Below are positions 1-49,041 of a stretch of 64,000 nucleotides of DNA, piece after piece; position 1 is the first letter of the stretch, and each line of letters starts with the position of its first letter. Under the pieces are notes generated by a model that worked only from the letters and a program-made list of their open reading frames with translations, was not told where the DNA came from and did no database searches. Both the position numbers and the translations under genes were made by a program. This DNA comes from a virus: the IMG/VR virus record IMGVR_UViG_3300047444_000299, positions 64,001 through 128,000 of that record. The stretch is one strand, 5' to 3'.

Positions 1-2
1 AA

Positions 3-638
3 ATGGCTATCTCGACAATACCTTTCGGCGGTTTTTACAATTCGATTCATGATTCTGAAATCGACAATACACTAGAGCGGATGTTTTCCGACCGGGATAC
101 TGGCAACGAACGCAATGAGGGGCTAGAACAAGCCTTCTATAGAAAGTGCGATTTTTCCGTGGTTCACCTTGACTATGCGAAAGCCTACGCCGAAGCATTC
201 GCGGATAAATTCGAAATCAAAGCCGAATTTGAATCCATGTCAAGCCCTAAAGAGTACAATTTTACAACTGACCGGATTTTTATCACGATTGCCGATAGTG
301 AGGTGGTCCGGTTGCATTCGCTTGTAAAGGCTGATGAACTCGACAAGGTAGCGAAAGAACGGTTTACCAGTTACGACGGGTTTAGTTCCTCCTATTCGAA
401 CGATGTAGGGGATTGGGGACCGGTTGCCGAATGGGATCACAACCAAATCGGCGCACTGATTCAGGCTTATGTCAATCAAGAATCAGATTCGGAATTTGAT
501 CAATATTCTGAATTGAGTTTGATGGAATCCTTTACAAGCAACGGCGGTTTAGATAGCTCGCTGGATACCGCCAACCCGGAAGCGGCTCGCCTGTACAAGA
601 TCCATGATTATCTGGAAAATCGAAAAGAACGCAAATAA
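3..638 (+). CDS. Hypothetical acidic early protein (211 aa)
   Basis: I do not recognise this protein. It is acidic, rich in Asp, Glu and Ser, with no membrane segment or clear catalytic motif. The last third is Ser/Asp rich and the C-terminus is a basic tail (ENRKERK). The ATG at position 3 is the first in frame, but the upstream sequence is outside the window, so the true start could lie further left. It is followed by a class A promoter and heads the early host-takeover region. A DNA-mimic or anti-restriction role would fit the acidity but is only a guess. Confidence 0.7.
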   Translation: MAISTIPFGGFYNSIHDSEIDNTLERMFSDRDTGNERNEGLEQAFYRKCDFSVVHLDYAKAYAEAFADKFEIKAEFESMSSPKEYNFTTDRIFITIADSEVVRLHSLVKADELDKVAKERFTSYDGFSSSYSNDVGDWGPVAEWDHNQIGALIQAYVNQESDSEFDQYSELSLMESFTSNGGLDSSLDTANPEAARLYKIHDYLENRKERK

Positions 639-651
639 CATCAAATAGGGG

Positions 652-679
652 TTGCATCAATTGCAGCCCCTGTTATACT
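652..679 (+). promoter_or_regulatory. Class A early promoter
   Basis: TTGCAT (652-657), 16-nt spacer, TATACT (674-679). The -35 box lies inside an imperfect inverted repeat whose arms are AGGGGTTGCA and TGCAGCCCCT, so a regulator could bind over it. It drives the gene at 710. Confidence 0.75.
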
Positions 680-709
680 GACCAGACCAACTAAGCAAGG
701 GGCTACAAA

Positions 710-1015
710 ATGAAACAATCCAGCTACGGCGACATAGAAAAATTCGCGGCTGAACAAGCCCAAATCTCGCCCGTACCTTGTGATTTTAAGGTCGGTGACA
801 AAGTGACCTATACCAATGAATATGGGGTAGTCTGGCCGGGTAAGGAAATTATCGGCTTTCGCGCATCGATAGACCCAGACTTTTTACCGGATCGGTTTAT
901 CTATATTGATACCGATGGTTATTGGTTCCCCAAGAAAATTTCCGAACTGAAACATGAATCAACCGGGCCTAATATCCCGGCATGTGACTACACAATCGAT
1001 ATGGATCAACACTAA
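710..1015 (+). CDS. Hypothetical early protein (101 aa)
   Basis: Unrecognised small protein in its own transcription unit between two class A promoters. Residues 25-50 (DFKVGDKVTYTNEYG and following) read like an SH3-like or KOW-like beta barrel opening, a pattern common in small phage proteins, but no family can be named. The ATG is preceded by AAGGGG at a suitable distance. Expression is expected immediately after infection from the promoter at 652-679. Confidence 0.75.
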   Translation: MKQSSYGDIEKFAAEQAQISPVPCDFKVGDKVTYTNEYGVVWPGKEIIGFRASIDPDFLPDRFIYIDTDGYWFPKKISELKHESTGPNIPACDYTIDMDQH

Positions 1016-1033
1016 AATAAAATCAAATAGGGG

Positions 1034-1061
1034 TTGCATCAAATACAACCCCTGCTATACT
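1034..1061 (+). promoter_or_regulatory. Class A early promoter
   Basis: TTGCAT (1034-1039), 16-nt spacer, TATACT (1056-1061). It contains TTGCATCAAA and an inverted repeat with arms AGGGGTTG and CAACCCCT. It drives the gene at 1095. Confidence 0.8.
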
Positions 1062-1094
1062 TACCCTACACCAACCAAAACAGGGGTTTGAATC

Positions 1095-1313
1095 ATGCAA
1101 CTGCACACCGTCGCCAAGGGCTCTAAAGTCACACTAGATCATCTTTTTGATGCGTTCCGTGCAATGACCCGCGAAGCCAATACGTCTACCCTGATGCATG
1201 GTCGCGTGTTCACCATGTCGCATCCTGTGACGGGTATGTGGTTTGTGTATGCCCACGACGTTGTAACAGGCGCACAACTGGCGTGCGCGCAGTTCGATCA
1301 ATTCGACCTGTAA
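1095..1313 (+). CDS. Hypothetical early protein (72 aa)
   Basis: Unrecognised 72-residue protein alone in its transcription unit. It begins 34 nt after the -10 box of the promoter at 1034-1061, with AGGGG upstream of the ATG. It has mixed alpha/beta composition, no membrane segment and no metal-binding motif. The promoter for the next gene begins 18 nt after its stop. Confidence 0.7.
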   Translation: MQLHTVAKGSKVTLDHLFDAFRAMTREANTSTLMHGRVFTMSHPVTGMWFVYAHDVVTGAQLACAQFDQFDL

Positions 1314-1331
1314 AAATTTGATGCAAAGGGG

Positions 1332-1359
1332 TTGTATTTGATTCAACCCCTGCTATACT
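1332..1359 (+). promoter_or_regulatory. Class A early promoter
   Basis: TTGTAT (1332-1337), 16-nt spacer, TATACT (1354-1359). It is overlapped by a perfect inverted repeat GGGGTTG/CAACCCC and preceded by TTTGATGCAA at 1317-1326. It drives the gene at 1392. Confidence 0.8.
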
Positions 1360-1391
1360 TCCAACACACCAAACGAATCGAGGGTTACAAA

Positions 1392-1709
1392 ATGTCGGAA
1401 TTGATCAAACAACTAGCCGAAGGTCTGGAATTCGCAACCGCTACCCTGAACGCCAACGGTGGTCCGCATGGTCAAAAGATCCTGTCCGCTGACCCCGGCA
1501 AGGTTTGGGTGCGTATCGTCTCCACGGACGTGAATCAGGATGGTTCTGTAAGCGACCGTCGCTATTGCTGGGGCTTTATGGATCAAGAAGGCAATTTGTG
1601 GAAATCGGCGGGTTGGAAAGCCCCGGCAAAGAACAAGCCACGGGGAACGGTTGCCGACCTGTTGGACGCCAAGAAGGTCGAAAACTGGCGTTATGGTGGT
1701 ATCCAGTGA
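1392..1709 (+). CDS. Hypothetical early protein (105 aa)
   Basis: Unrecognised. The reading frame opens further upstream, but the ATG at 1392 is chosen because the earlier ATG at 1332 overlaps the promoter. Residues 35-75 (KVWVRIVSTDVNQDGS, then a CWGFMDQEGNLWK strand pattern) suggest a small beta-rich fold. The stop codon overlaps a GTG that could start the short protein at 1706. Confidence 0.75.
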   Translation: MSELIKQLAEGLEFATATLNANGGPHGQKILSADPGKVWVRIVSTDVNQDGSVSDRRYCWGFMDQEGNLWKSAGWKAPAKNKPRGTVADLLDAKKVENWRYGGIQ

Positions 1710-1795
1710 GCCGCTGTAGTGACTGTGACGGCGTTTTGTGGTCGGATGAATCCAAACGGTTAGGGTATCACCCCGAATGCCGCCAAGACCCCTAG
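1706..1795 (+). CDS. Possible 29-aa zinc-knuckle peptide
   Basis: A GTG at 1706 overlaps the stop of the preceding gene (GTGA) and opens a 29-codon frame with Cys4, Cys7 and Cys25 plus His22, a possible CxxC...HxxC zinc site. The coupling and the Cys/His spacing favour a real peptide. The non-ATG start and short length keep confidence low. A terminator follows after 44 nt. Confidence 0.4.
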   Translation: MSRCSDCDGVLWSDESKRLGYHPECRQDP

Positions 1796-1839
1796 AGGGG
1801 GATCTAGAGGACCAATTAGAACAACTTCTGACCGACGAA

Positions 1840-1860
1840 AGCCCCGACTAGGGGCTTTTT
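1840..1860 (+). terminator. Intrinsic terminator
   Basis: AGCCCC-GACTA-GGGGCT stem-loop followed by five T. It ends the 1392-1795 unit. Confidence 0.85.
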
Positions 1861-1894
1861 CATTTATTTTAAAATAATTGCATCAAATTGCTTG
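1851..1894 (+). repeat. 44-bp direct repeat, copy 1 (terminator tail plus promoter lead)
   Basis: The 44 bp from the descending terminator arm through an AT-rich stretch and TTGCATCAAA to the GCTTG of the next promoter recur at 2206-2249 with two mismatches. Confidence 0.85.
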
Positions 1895-1919
1895 ACCTGA
1901 CCCGAAACCATGTCATAAT
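1892..1919 (+). promoter_or_regulatory. Early promoter
   Basis: TTGACC (1892-1897), 16-nt spacer, CATAAT (1914-1919), with TTGCATCAAA just upstream at 1878-1887. It drives the gene at 1983. Confidence 0.7.
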
Positions 1920-1982
1920 GAAACCACACAAGGCGAACGCCTTACCGCATAACCGGGCGGCTCTACCGGTGGGGATTCAATC

Positions 1983-2198
1983 ATGGCTACTCTGATCATC
2001 GGTAACGTTAATCACACAAATGAACACCTAATCAAAGGCATTGCAGGTGATGCCGGTTATGGTGGTTCGGTGCGACTGATAGACGAATGCACGCGCCGAA
2101 TTTGTCTGATGGTAGACAATGAGGATGAACGCGCCGAAGTCGAGCAAATGATAGGCCGGTATGCCCTAGCCGGGTTTGATGTAAAGGTTCAAGACTAA
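1983..2198 (+). CDS. Hypothetical early protein (71 aa)
   Basis: Unrecognised 71-residue protein with alternating strands and helices (TLIIGNVNHTN, RRICLMVDN, EQMIGRYALAGFDVKVQ), compatible with a small ferredoxin-like or ACT-like fold. The leader between promoter and ATG contains the short inverted repeat AAGGCGAACGCCTT. A terminator begins at the stop codon. Confidence 0.7.
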   Translation: MATLIIGNVNHTNEHLIKGIAGDAGYGGSVRLIDECTRRICLMVDNEDERAEVEQMIGRYALAGFDVKVQD

Positions 2199-2215
2199 GC
2201 CCTTCGGGGCTTTTT
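2198..2215 (+). terminator. Intrinsic terminator
   Basis: AGCCC-TTCG-GGGCT with a T tract, immediately after the stop of the 71-aa gene. Confidence 0.8.
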
Positions 2216-2249
2216 CGTTTATTTTAAAATAATTGCATCAAATGGCTTG
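2206..2249 (+). repeat. 44-bp direct repeat, copy 2
   Basis: Second copy of the 1851-1894 repeat (two mismatches), again joining a terminator to the next promoter. Confidence 0.85.
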
Positions 2250-2274
2250 TATTGCATCAAATTAGGCGTATACT
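2247..2274 (+). promoter_or_regulatory. Class A early promoter
   Basis: TTGTAT (2247-2252), 16-nt spacer, TATACT (2269-2274). TTGCATCAAA occurs twice here, at 2233 and 2252. It drives the gene at 2320. Confidence 0.8.
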
Positions 2275-2319
2275 GACCACAAGCAAAGGCAATCACGCCT
2301 AACCCAAGGGGATGCAAAC

Positions 2320-3141
2320 ATGGCAATCGCAAATTCAGAAGCAAAATACACCTTCATATCGACCGGCGACAAAGTTGCCATGTACACCTTGCGGGTTATG
2401 TGCCTTGATACCGTGCAATGGGGCGCCGAATCGTTCAAAGAAATGAACGATTATTACATTCAAAACCTGTCGAATGATAAGGCAACCGCCGAAGCTAAAG
2501 CGGTGGAAATGTCGGCATTGATGGGCCTGCCGTTCAAAGGCAACGCGGATTTTGAACTGAATGAAATTCGCCGGGTGCGTGATGCCGAAGCCACGGCCAA
2601 ACGTGAAGCCTCAGAACGTGCCTACGCCGAACGCGTGGCGGCATGGGAAGCTGAAAAGGTTGAACAAATTCAAGCCGGTGTTTTCATCCTAGGCAAGCAT
2701 ACCGGGTTAACCGCTGCCGAAGTAGCCGCGACCGATTTGGGTTATCTGTTTTGGGTTGCCCAACAAACCGACGCCACTGGCAAAATGGCGGTATGCGTGG
2801 CAATCGCTGCAAACTACATTAAAGAAACCGGCGTGGAACTTCCCGGCTATGTCGGCACCGTCGATCAACCGATTGAGCTAAGCCTGACCCTGAAACGTGT
2901 GTTTTGGACCCAATCCCAATATCCGACCCTGATGCATATCGCTCAAACCCCGGAAGGTAATGAAATTGTGTTTTTCAGCGTGGCCCAAGGGTTCAAAGAA
3001 ATTGAAGTAGGCCAGCAATTCACCATTACCGGGACCGTTAAAGAACAGCGCGAAGGCTGGGGAGGCGTCAAACAGACCGTTATCGGTAAGCCTAAGCTGC
3101 CGAAGCCAGCCAAACCGGCAAAGGTCAAGAAAGCCCCTTAA
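2320..3141 (+). CDS. Hypothetical early protein (273 aa)
   Basis: Largest protein of the first early block, unrecognised. Residues about 80-118 form a charged Ala/Glu/Arg helix, probably coiled coil. The middle (GKHTGLTAAEVAATDLGYLFWVA) loosely resembles the GKH...YL.W motif seen after some exonuclease domains. The last 15 residues are a Lys/Pro/Ala tail. It has an ATG with upstream AAGGGGATG. A weak hairpin (AGCCCC/GGGGCT) spans its stop codon. Confidence 0.8.
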   Translation: MAIANSEAKYTFISTGDKVAMYTLRVMCLDTVQWGAESFKEMNDYYIQNLSNDKATAEAKAVEMSALMGLPFKGNADFELNEIRRVRDAEATAKREASERAYAERVAAWEAEKVEQIQAGVFILGKHTGLTAAEVAATDLGYLFWVAQQTDATGKMAVCVAIAANYIKETGVELPGYVGTVDQPIELSLTLKRVFWTQSQYPTLMHIAQTPEGNEIVFFSVAQGFKEIEVGQQFTITGTVKEQREGWGGVKQTVIGKPKLPKPAKPAKVKKAP

Positions 3142-3180
3142 CGGGGCTTTACCCGCTATAAATTTATTTGCATCAATCGC

Positions 3181-3209
3181 TTGACATATTGAATTGATGC
3201 TATTAGAAT
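3181..3209 (+). promoter_or_regulatory. Early sigma70-type promoter
   Basis: TTGACA (3181-3186), 17-nt spacer, TAGAAT (3204-3209), with TTGCATCAAT at 3168. It drives the 3237-3754 gene pair. Confidence 0.75.
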
Positions 3210-3236
3210 CAACCCATATTCAAAGGAGTTTCAAGA

Positions 3237-3482
3237 ATGCGAAACCTACTCAAAAAGCTGGATCTGGTAACTGATCAACAAATAGCCGAATTCGTGGATT
3301 CGATCCAACATCATCGATCTGATTGGTTCACCATTGTGACCGTTGGGGCTAACGTGAATTCGGTGCCGAACCTGAATTTTCATTGGGGTAAAGTCGCCCC
3401 GGTGGTCGGTAGTGTGGCCGAAGTTGAACACGGTTATTATCAGAAAATCGTCGCGGTTCTGGATAAGAAGGGTTCGCAATAA
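3237..3482 (+). CDS. Hypothetical early protein (81 aa)
   Basis: Unrecognised. It has a strong Shine-Dalgarno sequence (AAAGGAG) before the ATG. Predicted mixed fold with an N-terminal helix (MRNLLKKLDLVTDQQIAEFVDSI) and later strands. It overlaps the next gene by a TAATG, so the two are probably translationally coupled. Confidence 0.75.
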   Translation: MRNLLKKLDLVTDQQIAEFVDSIQHHRSDWFTIVTVGANVNSVPNLNFHWGKVAPVVGSVAEVEHGYYQKIVAVLDKKGSQ

Positions 3483-3754
3483 TGAAAATGACATTAGAAC
3501 ACTTCGACAAGATCAAAGCGGCCTGTATGGATGTTTTGAAAGCCAACCCGAACGCGGCTCAAGACTACAAAAACGCCGGGTTGTCTGATAAGCGTTTCAA
3601 TTTTGACGTGTACCGGGCTGCCAAGATTGACGGCAAACCATCGTTACGCTTTACGTGTGACGTGCTGTATCCCTACCTGAATGATACCCATATCGGGACC
3701 GCGCTCAAGCTGATCATGGGCAATTCCGGCCTAGGCAAAGACGGTAAGCCTTAA
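3482..3754 (+). CDS. Hypothetical early protein (90 aa)
   Basis: Unrecognised basic protein coupled to the preceding gene (TAATG). The sequence has a helical N-terminus (TLEHFDKIKAACMDVLKAN) and a segment LSDKRFNFDVYRAAKIDGK. Its end lies just upstream of the promoter for the structured RNA at 3793. Confidence 0.7.
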   Translation: MKMTLEHFDKIKAACMDVLKANPNAAQDYKNAGLSDKRFNFDVYRAAKIDGKPSLRFTCDVLYPYLNDTHIGTALKLIMGNSGLGKDGKP

Positions 3755-3758
3755 CCGC

Positions 3759-3786
3759 TTGACACACCGCCAAACGGTGCTAGGGT
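3759..3786 (+). promoter_or_regulatory. Promoter for small RNA
   Basis: TTGACA (3759-3764), 16-nt spacer, TAGGGT (3781-3786) with an extended -10 TG. No protein gene with a ribosome site follows before the terminator. Confidence 0.6.
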
Positions 3787-3792
3787 TGATTC

Positions 3793-3881
3793 TAAGCGTA
3801 CAGGATGTACGCGGCTTGCGGGAGTCCACAACCGCCAGCCATCCCTAGCCCGCAAGGCCCGGAAGCTTTGCGGGCCTTTTT
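3793..3881 (+). ncRNA. Putative structured small RNA (~90 nt)
   Basis: Between a promoter and a strong terminator lie three successive stem-loops. Hairpin 1 is 3796-3812 (GCGTAC/GTACGC). Hairpin 2 is 3813-3840 (GGCT...AGCC with inner GCGG/CCGC). Hairpin 3 is 3848-3875, an 8-bp perfect stem GCCCGCAA/TTGCGGGC followed by five T. The only ATG lies inside hairpin 1 without a ribosome site. It does not fold as a tRNA. Function unknown; an antisense, RNase-decoy or host-regulator role is possible. Confidence 0.55.
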
Positions 3882-3945
3882 ATGGGTTGGATTTGTTGCA
3901 TCAAATAAGGGATTAAAGCAAATGAAATATTGTCATGATTTGTTT

Positions 3946-3974
3946 TTGCATTGCATCAAAACCTATGGTATATT
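3946..3974 (+). promoter_or_regulatory. Class A early promoter
   Basis: TTGCAT (3946-3951), 17-nt spacer, TATATT (3969-3974). TTGCATCAAA at 3951-3960 and again at 3896-3905. It drives the gene at 4092. Confidence 0.65.
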
Positions 3975-4091
3975 GATACTACTCGGGACATATACCCCGT
4001 TTTTAGGGTTTGTGGTCTGGGCTGGTATCAAAAATATTTTGATCTAAACTTGATCTATACAGGGAATTTGATAGAATGAAAGGTAAAGGAT

Positions 4092-4457
4092 ATGAGAGAC
4101 AAAAATTTACGACACGAACTAATCCCAGCCGAAAAACGGTTGGCCCGGATTGATGCAATTGACCGGGAACTAGAACGCCGAAGGGCCGCAAATGAAATTG
4201 ATTTGGTCGAGTATGTTGCAATCAAGCAACCCCTAACAGTCAAGCGGTTTAAAGAGTTTCGGTTAGTTGAACGGGCGATGGGTTGGAACCATTACGAAAA
4301 TATCGATGTACCCGAAAAGGTGCCGATAGTTGTGGAACCCGAACCAACCCCGGAACCCGAACCGGTGGCAATCGGCCAACGCCTGCTAGGTCTAACGGTG
4401 GTCGTTGTGTTGGTGGTCGTGATTAGTTGGGTTTGGTGTTGGTTGTCTAAGCCCTGA
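4092..4457 (+). CDS. Tail-anchored hypothetical membrane protein (121 aa)
   Basis: Unrecognised. Domain order: charged helical region (residues 1-60), a Pro/Glu-rich linker (about 78-94) and a single C-terminal transmembrane segment (about 99-118, LLGLTVVVVLVVVISWVW). The topology suggests a cytoplasmic domain held at the inner membrane by a C-terminal anchor, so an early host-membrane or signalling target is plausible. The purine-rich AAAGGA lies close before the ATG. Confidence 0.7.
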   Translation: MRDKNLRHELIPAEKRLARIDAIDRELERRRAANEIDLVEYVAIKQPLTVKRFKEFRLVERAMGWNHYENIDVPEKVPIVVEPEPTPEPEPVAIGQRLLGLTVVVVLVVVISWVWCWLSKP

Positions 4458-4477
4458 AAAAATTGATGCAAAACCGC

Positions 4478-4505
4478 TTTACAACCCTGTAGGGTTTGAT
4501 ATAAT
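4478..4505 (+). promoter_or_regulatory. Early promoter with consensus -10
   Basis: TTTACA (4478-4483), 16-nt spacer, TATAAT (4500-4505). ATTGATGCAA lies at 4462-4471. It drives 4538-5272. Confidence 0.8.
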
Positions 4506-4537
4506 CAACTTACTAACTTATAGAAAGGATGTTCAAA

Positions 4538-5056
4538 ATGACTAATTCCACCGTTGCAACCAAACCAGTTAAAGCCAAGAAGACAACCGCGCCTAAACTA
4601 ACAACTGTCGCCCCGGCTACTAACAAGACCCCAGAAGCTGCCAAGCCAGCCCAAGCGGCCAAACGTACCCGTAAACCAGCGGCTGCTAAACCTGTCGTTG
4701 TGGCTGATCCGGTGGCCCCTGTAGCTGTTGTGCCTGTAGCTGCCCCAGTGGTCGCAACCCCTGTTAAAAAAGGCGCGGGCCGTCCGCTGTCGTCGGAAGC
4801 TGCTAAAGTCCGTCGCCGGGTTGTTGGTGCCTTTGTCAAGCTGGCGGCTGCCGGTGAAATTGAAGTAACTGTAAAGGCCACGGCCAAAACCGTTAAACTG
4901 AAAAAGTCAACAGTTTCCAACACAATTCGTTGGGCCGAAGCCGAAGGCATTTTGACCCGAATCGGTTACAAGCTGAAATCTGGCCCCGGTCGTAAAGAAG
5001 TGTTCTATACCATCAATGCCGCCATGCTTGCCGCCGAAGCTGCAAAGGCCGCGTAA
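4538..5056 (+). CDS. Histone-H1-like winged-helix DNA-binding protein
   Basis: 172 aa. Residues 1-85 are a low-complexity Ala/Lys/Pro/Val region like bacterial H1-like (AlgP-type) tails. A short GAGRPLS resembles a minor-groove hook. Residues about 90-165 fit a winged helix-turn-helix (AAKTVKLKKSTVSNTIRWAEAEGILTRI, then a GPGRKEVFYTI wing). The start at 4538 is preferred over the in-frame ATG at 4529 because GAAAGGA is correctly spaced only for 4538. Probably a phage nucleoid-associated protein or transcription regulator made early from a strong promoter; target unknown. Confidence 0.7.
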   Translation: MTNSTVATKPVKAKKTTAPKLTTVAPATNKTPEAAKPAQAAKRTRKPAAAKPVVVADPVAPVAVVPVAAPVVATPVKKGAGRPLSSEAAKVRRRVVGAFVKLAAAGEIEVTVKATAKTVKLKKSTVSNTIRWAEAEGILTRIGYKLKSGPGRKEVFYTINAAMLAAEAAKAA

Positions 5057-5068
5057 AGGGGTTGACAA

Positions 5069-5272
5069 ATGACTGTTAAAGAAAAACCGAAAAAGCCTGT
5101 ACAAATTCGTTTGGTTGGGTTAGAGGGTAAAATTATCGGCGCCATCTTTCAAGATGCGAAAGGGTATTTTTACCGCCCCAAACGTAACAGCATCACCGTG
5201 GGGCCGTGGTCGTCAAAATGGGACGGTGACCACTACCCGACACAAAAGGAATGCGAACGAACGCTGTACTAG
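5069..5272 (+). CDS. Hypothetical early protein (67 aa)
   Basis: Unrecognised basic protein, 12 nt after the H1-like gene and in the same unit. The sequence (IRLVGLEGKIIGAIFQDAKGYFYRPKR) suggests a small beta sheet. An intrinsic terminator follows 17 nt after the stop. Confidence 0.7.
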   Translation: MTVKEKPKKPVQIRLVGLEGKIIGAIFQDAKGYFYRPKRNSITVGPWSSKWDGDHYPTQKECERTLY

Positions 5273-5289
5273 CCCTAGTTGACCACCCC

Positions 5290-5312
5290 AGCCCCTTAAC
5301 CGGGGCTTTTTA
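5290..5312 (+). terminator. Intrinsic terminator
   Basis: AGCCCC-TTAACC-GGGGCT followed by a T tract. Confidence 0.85.
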
Positions 5313-5326
5313 TTTCTTCAAATTGC

Positions 5327-5354
5327 TTGTATTTGATGCAACCCCTGTTATACT
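5327..5354 (+). promoter_or_regulatory. Class A early promoter
   Basis: TTGTAT (5327-5332), 16-nt spacer containing TTTGATGCAA (5332-5341), TATACT (5349-5354). It drives the gene at 5387. Confidence 0.8.
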
Positions 5355-5386
5355 GCTAACACACCAAACGAAATCAGGGGTTTGAC

Positions 5387-5632
5387 ATGAAAGACTTTTC
5401 TTATATCGATCAAGGGTTGTTTACCGCATTCATACCTAACACACCAGAGGCGGAAACCGCATGGCGTGAACTGGCAACGGTAACCGAGGGAACCGGGAAA
5501 GTTCCAACTATTCAGGCGAAACAGTTTATCTATCAATTGAGGAAAGCCGGGTACACCGTAGGGAAAGCCCCGAAAGCCAAGCCCCTGACCACTGATCAAA
5601 TTGATGATATGTTAGCCGAACTGGAATCCTGA
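5387..5632 (+). CDS. Hypothetical early protein (81 aa)
   Basis: Unrecognised. Starts 32 nt after the -10 box with AGGGG before the ATG. Mostly helical, with an acidic C-terminal helix (TTDQIDDMLAELES). Sole gene of its unit, between its own promoter and terminator. Confidence 0.7.
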   Translation: MKDFSYIDQGLFTAFIPNTPEAETAWRELATVTEGTGKVPTIQAKQFIYQLRKAGYTVGKAPKAKPLTTDQIDDMLAELES

Positions 5633-5647
5633 AAAATCCAGTTGACA

Positions 5648-5668
5648 AGCCCCGATAAGGGGCTTTTT
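5648..5668 (+). terminator. Intrinsic terminator
   Basis: AGCCCC-GATAA-GGGGCT followed by five T. Confidence 0.85.
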
Positions 5669-5687
5669 ATTGCCTGCAAAAAAGTAT

Positions 5688-5715
5688 TTGACCTATGTTC
5701 TGATTCGTGTATAGT
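5688..5715 (+). promoter_or_regulatory. Early promoter
   Basis: TTGACC (5688-5693), 16-nt spacer, TATAGT (5710-5715). It drives the kinase-like gene at 5747. Confidence 0.75.
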
Positions 5716-5746
5716 TCGCGCCATTCTGTTTCTAATGGCTTGCATC

Positions 5747-6403
5747 ATGAATCAAAACACAATCCTAGAACTGTTTCGCTACCATCAAGACCGCAACCTA
5801 ACCGACTACAAAGCCCTAAAGGCTAGTTTCTGGCACGGTATGGAACAAGCCGGGGCTAAGCTACTGGGGGCCGGTTGGTATTCGACTGTATGGGCTATCG
5901 GGGGCCGGGTGTTCAAGATCAATTCAGGATCGAACGGGGGCCGGGATGGTTTTGTCCATTGGGTTGATGGTATCCGGGAATATGGATCTAATCCGCATTT
6001 GCCTAGGGTTGGGGCCGTGGCGGTTGACTATGAACGCTATTGCATCGAATTAGAGCCCCTGACCCCGTTGGGATCTATCGACGCTCGGTTGATGGGTGAT
6101 AGCGGATTACATCTAATCACCGTCGATATGCTGGCGGATTATGTCCGGGGCTTGCCTGATTTGGTCGCGGCTATCGATCTGGCATACGGCATTGTGCAAC
6201 GGGTGAACCCTGAGCATGATTATGGCCCGTTCCCTGATCTGGCGTGCAAGCTGCATTGCCTTGACTTTTCGGACGGGGCCGGGTTTAGCAATTTGATGAA
6301 ACGCGGGGACATTCTTGTATTAAATGACCCGATAGCGTATAGCGCCGAATCAATCGAGCCCTATAACATCAAATTGCGGCAAAGTCTAGGTCTAGCGGCC
6401 TGA
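5747..6403 (+). CDS. Protein-kinase-like protein, T7 gp0.7-related
   Basis: 218 aa. Residues about 37-56 (GAGWYSTVWAIGGRVFKI) look like a kinase glycine loop followed by the ATP-binding Lys. NPHLPRVGA and the hinge-like ERYCIELEPL follow. Near residues 177-200 LDFSDGAGFSNLM...LVLNDP reads as a catalytic-loop Asp/Asn and a DP in place of DFG. T7-group gp0.7 kinases share this layout and shut off host transcription. The role here is inferred from those motifs and the early location. The ATG at 5747 is chosen; an in-frame ATG at 5735 is the alternative, and neither has a good ribosome site. Confidence 0.6.
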   Translation: MNQNTILELFRYHQDRNLTDYKALKASFWHGMEQAGAKLLGAGWYSTVWAIGGRVFKINSGSNGGRDGFVHWVDGIREYGSNPHLPRVGAVAVDYERYCIELEPLTPLGSIDARLMGDSGLHLITVDMLADYVRGLPDLVAAIDLAYGIVQRVNPEHDYGPFPDLACKLHCLDFSDGAGFSNLMKRGDILVLNDPIAYSAESIEPYNIKLRQSLGLAA

Positions 6404-6434
6404 ATCGGTTTTGAAAATAATTACATCAAACCCC

Positions 6435-6463
6435 TTGACTCTAACCGGGCAAGGGGCTATAGT
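6435..6463 (+). promoter_or_regulatory. Promoter with no obvious gene
   Basis: TTGACT (6435-6440), 17-nt spacer, TATAGT (6458-6463). TTACATCAAA lies at 6421. Transcription would read into the first 34-bp repeat copy. Confidence 0.65.
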
Positions 6464-6514
6464 TTGATTATGAGGTTGCGGGGTTGTAAACCCGGAGATA
6501 AACAGGGAGGGACG

Positions 6515-6548
6515 GCGAGATTTGAGTTGGCACGAATTTTGCTATGCA
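6515..6548 (+). repeat. 34-bp direct repeat, copy 1
   Basis: Core CGAGATTTGAGTTGGCA then GAATTTTGCT. It recurs at 6660-6693 with two mismatches. Each copy lies about 40-50 bp downstream of a promoter -10 box. Confidence 0.85.
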
Positions 6549-6591
6549 TATACCATGCCAGAAAATATTTTGGAATTTGATGCAAATGGGG

Positions 6592-6619
6592 TTGCATTCT
6601 TTTTGGGGTATGCTATTCT
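6592..6619 (+). promoter_or_regulatory. Class A promoter with no obvious gene
   Basis: TTGCAT (6592-6597), 16-nt spacer, TATTCT (6614-6619), preceded by TTTGATGCAA at 6576. It leads into the second 34-bp repeat copy. Confidence 0.6.
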
Positions 6620-6659
6620 ATAGTTACTGGGGAGGCTCAGAGGAAATCACCGGGGGTGG

Positions 6660-6693
6660 GCGAGATTTGAGTTGGCATGAATTTTGCTTTGCA
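6660..6693 (+). repeat. 34-bp direct repeat, copy 2
   Basis: Second copy of the 6515-6548 repeat, two mismatches. Confidence 0.85.
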
Positions 6694-6744
6694 GGATTCG
6701 TGCCACTTTTCGCGAAAAATTTTCGAAAAAGTTGAAAATAGGGG

Positions 6745-6773
6745 TTGACAGGGGGTCGGGGACGTGCTATACT
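6745..6773 (+). promoter_or_regulatory. Strong consensus promoter with no obvious gene
   Basis: TTGACA (6745-6750), 17-nt spacer, extended -10 TGcTATACT (TATACT at 6768-6773). It is one of the best sigma70 matches in the window yet no coding gene follows for 500 bp, suggesting an untranslated transcript. Confidence 0.75.
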
Positions 6774-7133
6774 GGGTGTGATGCCCGCGATTTGACCCAG
6801 ACGGGCAGGGGACCACCCTCCCCTCTCGATTTCGCGTTTTTCGAGAATTTTTCTCATTTGGACGTTTTTCGGGCCACCCTCCCCTATCAGATGGGATTTG
6901 TTCCGAAAATTTCTACAGAAGCCCCATGCGGGGCTAGAAGCAAGCTTCTAATCTAGACCTATTCAATCCTTCTATATAGAAGCTATAGATGTACAGGCGA
7001 GCCGTAGGCGAGTCTGTAGCCCTGCAAGGGCTTGATAGAGGCTTGGTTGGGTTTGTATATATTATCGGTTTTGGCGAATAGGCATTCAGGGTATCACACT
7101 TTTCAGCCAACCTAAACACATCCGGCAAAAAGC

Positions 7134-7232
7134 TCGACCAAAACTAGTTCGACCAAAACTAGTTCGACCGAAAAAGACCTCCACCGGCAAACGGTTCGAC
7201 CGATTTTCGACCATCTGGAAAGAAGCTCGACC
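7134..7232 (+). repeat. TCGACC motif cluster
   Basis: TCGACC occurs six times on this strand, at 7134, 7149, 7164, 7196, 7207 and 7227. The first two are in perfect 15-bp tandem units TCGACCAAAACTAGT and the third begins a diverged unit. Iteron-like, or a binding array for a regulator of the adjoining promoter. Confidence 0.8.
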
Positions 7233-7233
7233 G

Positions 7234-7268
7234 ATTCTGTTTGGATTCAGATTCGGTTGTGGTATCAT
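7234..7268 (+). promoter_or_regulatory. Class B promoter
   Basis: Box ATTCTGTTTGG (7234-7244) and TATCAT (7263-7268), the same spacing as the other class B sites. The predicted transcription start falls on or next to the ATG at 7275. Confidence 0.75.
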
Positions 7269-8690: not shown

Positions 8691-9167
8691 ATGATGCAAT
8701 ACAAAACTGTTAAGGGCAACCTGTTTGATTATCTCAAACCGGGTGATGCAATGGTGCATGGTTGTAACAATCAAGGTGTAATGGGATCTGGTATCGCACT
8801 TGAGGTTAAAGAACGATTCCCCGGTGCCTATAGCACCTATCGAAACAAATACGACCTACACGGCCTAGAGCTGGGTGAAATCATACCATATTTTGATCGA
8901 TCCGGTAAAATCATCATCAACGCGGTGACCCAGAATTTCTATGGCAAAGACGGTAAACGGTATGTCAAATATGATGCTGTAGCCGATTGCTGTTACCACA
9001 TCCGCGAAGGCTTCAAAGTCATGCTAGAACCACCAAAAACCCTGTACTTCCCATTGATTGGGGCCGGGTTAGGTGGTGGTAACTGGAATGTCATATCCGA
9101 AATCATCAAATCAGAATTTGATGGTATGACCGGTACGGAATTGGTTTTGGTTCTGAAAGATGCTTGA
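8691..9167 (+). CDS. Macro-domain (ADP-ribose-binding) protein
   Basis: 158 aa, a complete single macro domain. It has the early GNLFDYL, VHGCNNQGVMGSGIALEVKERFP (ribose-binding loop about residues 23-45), NAVTQ and the late IGAGLGGGNW loop, characteristic of the Poa1/ALC1-like branch that binds ADP-ribose, hydrolyses ADP-ribose-1''-phosphate or removes ADP-ribosyl groups. In a phage this could reverse host ADP-ribosylation or remove an NAD-derived signal (inference). Two ATGs in tandem (8691, 8694) follow AAGGA. It overlaps the next gene by 8 nt. Confidence 0.9.
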   Translation: MMQYKTVKGNLFDYLKPGDAMVHGCNNQGVMGSGIALEVKERFPGAYSTYRNKYDLHGLELGEIIPYFDRSGKIIINAVTQNFYGKDGKRYVKYDAVADCCYHIREGFKVMLEPPKTLYFPLIGAGLGGGNWNVISEIIKSEFDGMTGTELVLVLKDA

Positions 9168-9426
9168 CCAACTGAAACGCCTGCAAGAAATCAATGCGGA
9201 GCTAACAGAATTGGTCAAAAGTATGCTGACCGATATCAAGGAATTGCAGGATCAAACCGGCATTACCTTCGACCGATGGAGAGAAACCAGAAAAGAACAA
9301 AATCTGCTTTACATCCGTGACAGAATTGAATATCATCGTTCGCATGGTGAGGGGATGATGGGTGCCAAGGTACTGGCAGTCAAAGACCTTCGCGAACTAC
9401 ATCAACGGGAATTTCGAAACTCATGA
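9160..9426 (+). CDS. Hypothetical coiled-coil protein (88 aa)
   Basis: Unrecognised. Heptad-like N-terminal helix (LDQLKRLQEINAELTELVKSML). Overlaps the macro-domain gene at its start and the lipoprotein gene at its end (ATGA), so the three form one translationally coupled unit. Confidence 0.75.
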   Translation: MLDQLKRLQEINAELTELVKSMLTDIKELQDQTGITFDRWRETRKEQNLLYIRDRIEYHRSHGEGMMGAKVLAVKDLRELHQREFRNS

Positions 9427-10433
9427 AAAAGACATTGATCGCTGTTTTGATTGCTTCTGTATTCACTACTGGTCTGACCGGTTGCGGTAAGAGCGATAAA
9501 GAACTGAAAATGGAAGCCGATGCTGCGGCCTATCAACAGGCTCAAGCCGAAGCCGTGAAACAGCAACAGCTTGAGTTGGAAGCCCAACAAGCGGCATCGG
9601 CTCAGCAAGCCCAAGACACCCAAGAATTGGCAGATGTAGTTGCCGAACTGAAAAAGGGTGATCCACTCGTTAAAGATGCCTATTACGGCTATAACGAAAA
9701 GGGTGATCGGGTGTTGCATGTGATTCGTGACAACCCACCACAGCAACAACCTCAGACCGGTTATGGTCAACCTCAATACCAGAATGCATCTGGTCAACCG
9801 GTGATCATCAACAACCAACCGGCTCAGCAAGCCTCTAGCGGCGTGTCTGAATCGATTTGGCCGCTGGCCGCTGGTGTTGGGGCGGGTATGTTGCTGGCGC
9901 ACGCTATGAACAGCGGTGGGGGCTATAACAGCTATTCCAGCTATCACCAGCCGTACAGTTCCCGCAATTGGAACAGCGACAACGATTATCGCCGTGAACG
10001 CACTACGGTTGTGAACAACTATCACACCACCACAATCAACAACACCCGGACTGCCTACCGCAATCCGAATGGTCCTGTTGCGCAGAAAATGGCGGCTCAG
10101 GGGTTCCAACCGGTTAAACAAGCCCCGGCTGCACCCGGCTTTGCTCAAACTAAACAACTGGCGAGCCCTACCACACTGGCAAAACCTGTACAACCTGCAC
10201 AGCAACCGGTGGCAAAACCTTTGACCAATCCACAGGTTAATTCCTATTGGAGTCAACCGAAACCAGAACCGGTTAAACCAGCAGCTCCAAGCAATTCGTA
10301 CTGGGGTTCTACCGCGAAGGCTTCACCGTCTCCAGCAGCGGCTAAGACCACCGGTTATAGTTCTGGTTCGAGTTACAAGCCATCAGCTAGTCCGGCTCGG
10401 ACTTTCACAGCCAGCCCTGCACGTCGCCGTTAA
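9423..10433 (+). CDS. Low-complexity phage lipoprotein (336 aa)
   Basis: SPII signal peptide: KK n-region, hydrophobic core (residues 4-17) and lipobox LTGC with the lipidated Cys at 21. After it come a Gln/Ala/Glu coiled coil (about 30-72), a Pro/Gln-rich linker, a short hydrophobic segment (IWPLAAGVGAGMLLAHAM, about 140-158), a Ser/Tyr/Asn/Arg region and a Pro/Ala/Ser tail ending in ARRR. Likely anchored at the inner face of the outer membrane or in the periplasm. Superinfection exclusion or envelope modification is possible, but no family is recognised. Confidence 0.8.
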   Translation: MKKTLIAVLIASVFTTGLTGCGKSDKELKMEADAAAYQQAQAEAVKQQQLELEAQQAASAQQAQDTQELADVVAELKKGDPLVKDAYYGYNEKGDRVLHVIRDNPPQQQPQTGYGQPQYQNASGQPVIINNQPAQQASSGVSESIWPLAAGVGAGMLLAHAMNSGGGYNSYSSYHQPYSSRNWNSDNDYRRERTTVVNNYHTTTINNTRTAYRNPNGPVAQKMAAQGFQPVKQAPAAPGFAQTKQLASPTTLAKPVQPAQQPVAKPLTNPQVNSYWSQPKPEPVKPAAPSNSYWGSTAKASPSPAAAKTTGYSSGSSYKPSASPARTFTASPARRR

Positions 10434-47401: not shown

Positions 47402-48193
47402 TTAACCTAGACGACGAGCTGCGCCTAGATATGCTTGCATATGCGAACTAACAGCAGGCTTTTCGTCAACAACCGGAGCACTTTCGGTAACTACGTCGGT
47501 TTTATCAGCGGCTGGGGCCGATGGCTTGCTAGCAATTGCTTCTACAATGCGTTTAACTTTTTCGGCATACACATCACTGAAAATCAGATCCGAGGCTAGT
47601 TCACGAACTTTTTCAGCTTGTGATTCGGCTAGGTCGGCTACAGCAGCATCAAGGATTTCTGCTTTCTTACTTTCACTGATTGTTTTGCTCAGTTCGATAA
47701 CTTTTGCTTGAGATTCGGCTAGAGTTTCTTTAACAGTCGCTAGTTCAGCTTCTGCGATACTCAGTACGTCTTTCTGTTCATCGGACAGTTTGATGTTATG
47801 GTTTTCAAACACACCAATCAGTTCCGCCATTAGGGAGCTAAACAGAGCAGCTTTAACGTTGGATTCGACAACTGGTTTGTTGTCGGCAACGAATTCTTCT
47901 GCAAAGTGCTTAACATAGGCGTCAACTTTGGCTTCCATTTCTTCTCTGACCAGAACTTTGTATTCTTCGGCCTTTTCGTTTAGGAAGTTTGTGTGTTCAA
48001 GGGCTTTGGCTTCCAGCTCTGTAACTTTTGCCTCTACCAGTGAGTCAACACCGGCTTTGGTTTGTGCGGCAACAGCGGCATTGAAAACTTCTACGAAGTC
48101 ATCAATCTTACCTGCCGGGGCACCAACACTTTCGAACAGCGCCTTTACTTCATCAGTATTTAGAAGCTCAGCGCCAATAGTTTTGTCAGTCAT
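47402..48193 (-). CDS. 22: Prohead core scaffold protein
   Basis: 263 aa (T4 gp22 269 aa). Glu/Ala/Lys-rich helical protein with long coiled-coil stretches and the conserved C-terminus SHMQAYLGAARRLG. It forms the internal scaffold and is degraded by gp21. Positioned between 21 and 23 as in T4. Confidence 0.88.
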   Translation of the reverse strand: MTDKTIGAELLNTDEVKALFESVGAPAGKIDDFVEVFNAAVAAQTKAGVDSLVEAKVTELEAKALEHTNFLNEKAEEYKVLVREEMEAKVDAYVKHFAEEFVADNKPVVESNVKAALFSSLMAELIGVFENHNIKLSDEQKDVLSIAEAELATVKETLAESQAKVIELSKTISESKKAEILDAAVADLAESQAEKVRELASDLIFSDVYAEKVKRIVEAIASKPSAPAADKTDVVTESAPVVDEKPAVSSHMQAYLGAARRLG

Positions 48194-48220
48194 TAAAGAC
48201 TCTCCAAGAATTGTTTGAAG

Positions 48221-48228
48221 TATTTATA
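48221..48228 (-). promoter_or_regulatory. Late promoter (TATAAATA)
   Basis: Perfect match, 28 nt upstream of gene 22. Confidence 0.88.
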
Positions 48229-48252
48229 TCAATTGGACTGGGCATTCCAGCC

Positions 48253-49041
48253 TTAACCTAGATATTTTTTAAGTTCTTTTACCGGAACGGACCATTTGCT
48301 GGTATCGCATTCAATAATGAGAACGCCGCCCTTAGTGGACAATTTCATCCCATCTTGACCGGTGGTTGATTCAATGATCATCGGTGTATTTAGTCCTGCC
48401 AAATTACGCAGTCCGTAAGACACCCGATCCCAATCAGTTGTGGCTTTCTGTTTCAGCGGAATGTAAATTTGCCCATTGGACTCATATACCCCAGCCATGA
48501 TAGCGCCCGGTGCCGATTGGTTATGCACGAAATCAAAACCAGCAGTTAGTTGGAATTTAGTAATTTCGGTGTACGCTTTGCCGAACTTGGAACGGGCTTC
48601 ATTAATTTGAACCGCCTTTCCTAAACCACGGGTTGAAACCGTAGGAGTCCAGCCACCCTCGATCAAAGCTCGTACTGTCTGACCCTTTTCGGTGCCTAAC
48701 AGCTTGGCTCTGGCGCAAATGTTGTTCCCATCAACCCATAACTTTTCAATCAAATGACTGGCTTCGCTTAGAAGCACGTTAGGGCGTGGTGGGTGGTCGC
48801 ATTCGCCTAGGGCTTGGTGTCGATCTACATAACGTTCGATGTACTGTTGTACGGCCTCTGACATGACTTGGAAGGGGTATACACGCCCGTTCCCGTTCAA
48901 TGTCTCGGCTTGCATCGCAATACCTTCGACGTATAAATTTTTGTCGCCGCTTTTAGAAACTTCGGTAACCATTTCCACTTTGAAGTCTTCAACTTCCGTG
49001 AACAGGTACTCTTGCGACTCGACGATCAGTTGATCAGTCAT
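48253..49041 (-). CDS. 21: Prohead maturation protease
   Basis: 262 aa (T4 gp21 212 aa). Serine protease signatures: YIERYVDRHQALGECDHP (catalytic His) and GWTPTVSTRGLGK (catalytic Ser), with IVESQEYLFTEVED at the start. Cleaves scaffold and gp23 after [hydrophobic]-x-Glu. A C-terminal extension of about 50 residues is longer than in T4. Confidence 0.88.
   Translation of the reverse strand: MTDQLIVESQEYLFTEVEDFKVEMVTEVSKSGDKNLYVEGIAMQAETLNGNGRVYPFQVMSEAVQQYIERYVDRHQALGECDHPPRPNVLLSEASHLIEKLWVDGNNICARAKLLGTEKGQTVRALIEGGWTPTVSTRGLGKAVQINEARSKFGKAYTEITKFQLTAGFDFVHNQSAPGAIMAGVYESNGQIYIPLKQKATTDWDRVSYGLRNLAGLNTPMIIESTTGQDGMKLSTKGGVLIIECDTSKWSVPVKELKKYLG

Follow-up and report, generated by a model that had tools for sequence, protein, structure and literature searches.

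The window analysed here spans 64,000 bases (64001-128000) of virus record IMGVR_UViG_3300047444_000299, which is 183,070 bases long and is called G000 below. Its first 7 kb are the end of a 27-kb region of small genes (G000 44001-71000), the early region, in which predicted sigma70-type promoters are accompanied by spacer stem-loops and by repeated copies of a 10-base word, TTGCATCAAA. Judged by its rIIA, rIIB, single-strand binding protein, ribonucleotide reductase and other T4-type families, the G000 phage is T4-like. The nearest isolates found are the Pseudomonas phages Milchi and Astolliot, which share roughly 68% identity across half of a 7.6-kb stretch and were proposed as a novel genus in 2025 (PMC11780129). 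With modest confidence, we predict that a single DNA-binding protein recognises TTGCATCAAA in a sequence-specific manner and thereby controls the early promoters of the G000 phage and its near relatives. The evidence is sequence throughout, and the promoters are predicted.

Allowing one mismatch, the window contains 71 matches to the 10-mer, compared with 9.5 +/- 3.2 in shuffled sequences. The whole of G000 has 71 exact copies, 49 of them within the early region; the reversed pattern, as a control, occurs once. Copies outside this region that were viewed in context (5 in window 7001-64000 and those at 8 further loci) look coding. Two related records also carry the word, with 57 copies in G001 (control 0), 42 of which lie within positions 80506-103715, and 20 copies in the G004 record. 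Milchi has six exact copies and Astolliot nine. An earlier sequence-only reading had listed 13 copies in the first part of the window, all of which are present, and had described every copy as intergenic or on a promoter. This description is too strong, because up to one mismatch yields 19 copies in window 1-7000. The six absent from its list are at 518, 1337, 2175, 4149, 6040 and 6292, of which that at 1337 lies in a promoter and the other five lie inside open reading frames. That reading had also proposed a scan of the full genome and its relatives, which finds the word enriched in early-promoter slots.

Sigma70-like hexamer pairs ahead of ribosome-binding sites were listed without using the 10-mer. 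The permitted -35 forms include TTGCAT, and this introduces a mild circularity for the form whose copy starts at -22, in which the -35 is the TTGCAT of the copy. For G000, 36 plus-strand rows were reduced to 32 by removing two inside genes (7810 and 13473), a putative small-RNA promoter that lacks the 10-mer (11950) and a misread -10 (23964). Also removed before counting were row 1377 of L020 (the locus label for record G001), row 5164 of Astolliot and the opposite-strand rows of G000, L020 and L025.

In this promoter set, the 10-mer occupies two fixed slots. With the first base of the -10 hexamer as reference, the upstream slot comprises copies that begin at -35 to -39 and the spacer slot those that begin at -16 to -18; some hairpin promoters carry a forward copy at -22 or -23. 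Taking the hexamer start as -12, the slots extend from about -48 to -39 and from about -29 to -20. A slot is occupied by 44 of the 49 exact early-region copies, compared with 3.4% of 1500 random positions, and by none of the 5 exact copies farther along the window (7001-64000). Viewed from the promoters, 30 of the 32 in the G000 early region contain at least one exact slot copy: the upstream slot alone is filled in 7, the spacer slot alone in 17 and both in 6. The best copy in the remaining two has one mismatch. Doubly filled promoters mostly space their copies 18-20 bp apart, start to start. When all loci of the clade are included, 57 of 69 promoters have an exact slot copy, and orientation varies, with 23 forward and 5 reversed in the upstream slot and 18 forward and 22 reversed in the spacer.

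Bases around the word are far less uniform. Considering the 12 promoters that lack a hairpin and carry an exact forward copy in the spacer, the flanks on either side of this copy are 45-47% identical pairwise, and the bases linking it to the -10 are 45% identical. In 20 aligned upstream regions of gene pairs, identity reaches 78% for upstream sites (86/110) and 91% for spacer sites (122/134), compared with 62% (455/736) for the other promoter bases. These 20 pairs were counted out of 61 hits, after exclusion of three pairs whose -10 had changed and of L022, which repeats L023, a locus in the G004 record. Fixed slots, use of either orientation, presence in several phages, conservation above the rest of the promoter and unshared flanks together make up the pattern of a protein-binding site. 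The near-symmetry of the 10-mer (TTnnATnnAA) suits its freedom of orientation.

Alternatively, the 10-mer could be a selected promoter context that aids host RNA polymerase directly, through UP-element A-tracts or the composition of the -35 and spacer, with no separate regulator. The upstream slot coincides with the subsites of the carboxy-terminal domain of the polymerase alpha subunit, T4 early promoters are described as having a consensus beyond -35 and -10 (PMC2988021), and in one slot form the -35 is part of the 10-mer itself. A UP element would place its A/T-tracts solely upstream of the -35. An A/T-rich upstream context is indeed present, but the same exact word, with its GC-containing middle part, also lies in the spacer, where the alpha-subunit domain makes no contact, and in both orientations, and 26 hairpin promoters of Milchi and Astolliot lack an exact spacer copy. 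A pure UP/-35 context, which the sequence-only reading had offered as its second option, thus leaves the spacer copies and the reversed copies unexplained, and we regard this account as rather unlikely.

The AGGGGTTG/CAACCCCT inverted arms seen in that reading are real and recurrent. Arms of the AGGGGTTG...CAACCCCT type fill the spacer in 16 of the 32 G000 promoters, and 26 of 34 promoters in Milchi and Astolliot have a hairpin. Their inclusion in the same operator is not supported: the stem-loop probably stands in place of a terminator and occurs in relatives without the 10-mer. Specifically, an exact spacer 10-mer is found in 0 of the 26 hairpin promoters of Milchi and Astolliot (one has a copy with one mismatch), compared with all 8 of their hairpin-free promoters, and G000 retains the 10-mer in two cases in which the left hairpin arm has been lost (window 5332 and G000 50403). 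Thus, the hairpin and the 10-mer are separate features that occupy one spacer.

Several observations bear on what the hairpin does. Hairpin promoters have a separate intrinsic terminator upstream in 3 of 52 cases and the remaining promoters in 16 of 31 (Fisher p 2.7e-6, with each related promoter counted singly), and the sense strand lacks a T-run after the hairpin. In 44 hairpins that are distinct by sequence and reach the required score of 20, the sense-strand cells comprise 465 Watson-Crick, 44 GT, 8 AC and 10 other pairs, the rows being related copies. UNCG loops occur in 11 of the 26 Milchi and Astolliot hairpins. The scarcity of non-GT mismatches and the UNCG loops favour pairing in the sense RNA. 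The excess of GT over AC is weaker as proof of an RNA hairpin, since the left arm is constrained by its overlap with the -35, and transitions that occur only in the right arm yield GT anyway.

We take such spacer-hairpin promoters to be the promoter-early stem-loops (PeSLs) of T4-like phages, reportedly described by Arbiol in 2010 and Comeau in 2014. As a module separate from the 10-mer, the stem-loop would be a PeSL-like promoter-terminator that most likely ends or shields the read-through RNA of the preceding gene. Phage RB49 has the same layout, for example TTGACA-GGGGATCggtGATCCCC-TATACT, and no fixed 10-mer of this kind was seen in the RB49 promoters inspected. A scan of viral contigs for the Milchi-type hairpin pattern found none.

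Related genes sit in different surroundings in the relatives of G000. The 10-mer might be part of the text copied when recombining PeSL-like cassettes are homogenised by exchange: shuffling between T4-like phages has been attributed to PeSLs (PMC4503421), and long shared modules such as TTTTAAAATAATTGCATCAAATGCTTGCATTGCATCAAA do exist. We nevertheless find this origin distinctly unlikely, because the flanks have only the low pairwise identity noted above, because the word enters the same slot in either orientation and in promoters of two types, and because the exact word recurs with other flanks in the hairpin-free promoters of Milchi and Astolliot.

The individual sites in window 1-7000 illustrate both features. 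At 652-661 (plus strand), the site TTGCATCAAT, with one mismatch, occupies the spacer slot in forward orientation (-22) within the stem-loop AGGGGTTGCA-tcaat-TGCAGCCCCT (647-671, plus), which fills the -35/-10 spacer before the -10 TATACT at 674-679. The exact site at 1034-1043 (plus) is likewise a forward spacer copy (-22), here within AGGGGTTGCAT-caa-ATACAACCCCT (1029-1053, plus), which covers the spacer, and the -10 TATACT is at 1056-1061. Both slots are filled in the next promoter, by an exact reversed upstream copy at 1317-1326 (minus, -37) and by the previously unlisted one-mismatch copy at 1337-1346 (minus), reversed in the spacer (-17); the stem-loop AGGGGTTGTAT-ttg-ATTCAACCCCT (1327-1351, plus) covers the spacer, and the -10 TATACT is at 1354-1359. 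Two further promoters lack a hairpin. One has an exact forward upstream site at 1878-1887 (plus, -36) ahead of -35 TTGACC (1892-1897) and -10 CATAAT (1914-1919), and the other has exact forward sites in the upstream slot at 2233-2242 (plus, -36) and in the spacer at 2252-2261 (plus, -17), with -35 TTGTAT at 2247-2252 and -10 TATACT at 2269-2274.

Farther along, a one-mismatch site at 3168-3177 (plus) lies in the upstream slot (-36) of TTGACA (3181-3186) and TAGAAT (3204-3209). The exact site at 3951-3960 (plus) is in a spacer slot (-18) provided that the -10 is TATATT. A one-mismatch site at 4462-4471 (minus) is reversed in the upstream slot (-38) of the promoter of a winged-helix protein gene (TTTACA 4478-4483, TATAAT 4500-4505), and the exact site at 5332-5341 (minus), whose promoter has lost its left hairpin arm, is reversed in the spacer (-17) before the -10 TATACT at 5349-5354. 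At 6421-6430 (plus), a one-mismatch site fills the upstream slot (-37) of -35 TTGACT (6435-6440) and -10 TATAGT (6458-6463), a promoter that holds a different spacer hairpin, CCCCTTG...CAAGGGG (window 6431-6463). The claim that copies lie near sigma70-type pairs holds for most of the listed ones; it fails for the exact orphan copy at 3896-3905 (plus), which is intergenic without a recognisable promoter slot, and is doubtful for the exact copy at 6576-6585 (minus), which would be a reversed upstream copy (-38) only with the weak -10 TATTCT (6614-6619) and was not scored as in a slot.

Other repeated sequences accompany these promoters. Bases 3' of the -10 are also alike, as GACCACACACCAACCGAAA in G000 (for example at 9692-9740 of the G000 locus L009) and as GATCACATCAAA in Milchi and Astolliot, and may be a leader element. 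A noncoding element of 95-110 nucleotides, TTTGAGTTGGCAyGA...TGCCA, is repeated at window 6466-6572 and 6621-6716, at L009 11957-12056 and once each in L020, L023 and L024. Each copy has a promoter-like pair on its 5' side, and the element could represent an early small RNA family; it matches no Rfam family at the gathering score, and 17 consensus pairs predicted from six aligned copies include 0 with changes on both sides. A further noncoding stretch at window 7119-7245 carries short repeats around CTCGACCAAAACTAGTTCGACC.

If a protein does read the 10-mer, then repression is its most likely effect, because both slots lie within the RNA polymerase footprint. Such a repressor would accumulate after infection, and the early promoters would then be switched off. 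The weakest step of this model is the binder, which may be the phage's own winged-helix protein, a product of 172 amino acids encoded at window 4538-5056 (plus). Its predicted structure has a C-terminal winged-helix domain (predicted local distance difference test values of about 60-77 by block) and a basic N-terminus of low confidence. Its Foldseek matches, which are weak (best E 1.5e-3), are to repressors of the winged-helix class and to centromere-binding proteins. Homologues occur in all 5 records searched, with the nearest copy being 80% identical in G001, 69% in G004 and 39% in Milchi and Astolliot. No match at 1e-5 came from searching the phage collection, the 39% relative having been reached by another route. 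A second copy, 31% identical, lies at the opposite end of the G000 early region (48031-48507) and has counterparts in G001 and G004.

The promoter of this gene is conserved in G000, G001 and L023, with an upstream near-copy of the 10-mer and TTGATATAATCAA over the -10; the palindrome TTGAT-ATA-ATCAA overlaps this -10. The layout is suggestive of self-control. We propose, tentatively and well short of calling it probable, that the winged-helix protein, itself a product of the early region, binds TTGCATCAAA in the two slots at essentially every early promoter and so turns the set off as a unit. The shared regulator site put forward by the sequence-only reading is backed by fixed slots, either orientation, several related phages and conservation, and for the regulator itself the protein at 4538 is a fair candidate only.

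Several points weigh against a dedicated binding site. The promoters of one clade are related and hence are not independent, and the link between the winged-helix protein and the 10-mer is co-occurrence within that one clade. The upstream-region alignments are rough, and the filter biases their hex10 figure. The upstream slot of hairpin promoters is loose, retaining an ATCAAA/TTTGAT core only, and 11 of 37 such promoters lack an upstream match even when two mismatches are allowed. Promoter-like pairs without the 10-mer are present at window 5688, at window 6745 and near G000 55950. Finally, AAAATAATTGCATCAAA is a fair fit to the UP element in our comparison with its consensus.

A host DNA-binding protein might instead read the 10-mer, as camouflage or as a timing cue. 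Early promoters fire before phage proteins exist, and a host factor would be available as soon as infection begins. However, in a collection of 84,980 genomes of bacteria and archaea, the tandem arrangement TTGCATCAAA-N8-10-TTGCATCAAA occurs in only 43 scattered stretches, none of them with Pseudomonas in its title. Six of these contexts were read and are unlike the G000 promoters, although a host regulon built on single sites would escape this search. Among viral contigs, only L020 has several tandem sites (4 matches); ten others have one each, in contexts unlike those of G000. We consider a host reader very unlikely.

Other searches yielded little. Scanning viral contigs for TTGCATCAAA-N5-8-TATACT returned at least 117 stretches that we judged to be mostly chance, and only L020 and L030 were used. 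A 58-base promoter query among isolated phages gave no convincing relative. Sites of the FNR/ANR and IHF types do not fit the 10-mer, as compared by eye with their consensus sequences.

The winged-helix model places repression at the slots, but a site near the -35 could also serve activation, as an analogue of the MotA box for early or middle genes. The upstream slot is centred near -43, a class II activator position. TGCATCA is one base off the MotA box TGCTT(t/c)A, whose consensus is given in PMC2988021, so the two share a likeness as short phage-specific boxes near the -35 that differ by one base in a seven-base core. A homologue of AsiA, which in G000 lies at 9122-9334 and so outside the window, also exceeds the cut-off in 4 of the 5 records searched. 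Yet the MotA C-terminal domain PF09158 is found in 0 of the 5 records, and the MotA box is described as sitting 12 +/- 1 bp from the -10 (PMC2988021), whereas spacer copies of the 10-mer end about 7 bp from it and are often reversed. Promoters with the 10-mer already possess a -35 and a -10, while the MotA box takes the place of a -35, and a different box, ATTCTGTTTAGG, marks sites that resemble middle promoters. We accordingly rejected identity with the MotA box on position, freedom of orientation, the intact -35 and the missing MotA domain, and a role as an activator box analogous to it seems highly improbable. The ATTCTGTTTAGG box has 7 copies in G000, all on the plus strand (control 0), and the form ATTCTGTTTA(g) precedes GGTATGAT-like hexamers by about 19 bases at window 7874, 18374, 20287, 24321, 32513 and 36195.

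Among known systems, T4 early promoters resemble those of G000 in their host-type -35 and -10, their A/T-rich upstream part, their many copies and their location in the early region of a T4-like genome. To our knowledge, T4 early promoters have no common operator. They are described as halting abruptly minutes after infection, with AsiA and ModA being insufficient and 'as yet unknown strategies' invoked (PMC2988021), and another source calls the shut-off mechanism 'not completely understood' (PMC3014915). If our model is correct, early shut-off becomes testable with one protein and one site, which offers a candidate answer for T4-like phages. No title among the matches listed from open-access PubMed Central reports the 10-mer site.

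In both PeSLs and the G000 promoters, a strong sigma70-like early promoter (predicted, for G000) is joined to a stem-loop, and the unit recurs among the small genes of a variable region; the G000 promoters differ in that two slots also hold a fixed 10-mer. The 16-17 bp that separate the -35 from the -10 can evidently accommodate both a hairpin and a putative binding site. A dedicated early-gene repressor regulon of the proposed type would overlie promoter-terminator cassettes in a T4-like phage, an arrangement that we advance just as guardedly as the role of the winged-helix protein. In stoperator-type phage repressor regulons, one short site is repeated across the phage genome. G000 is alike in its single repeated short site, no lysogeny module was noticed in the part of its genome that was read, and it differs from stoperator-type systems in being T4-like and in having its sites tied to promoter slots.

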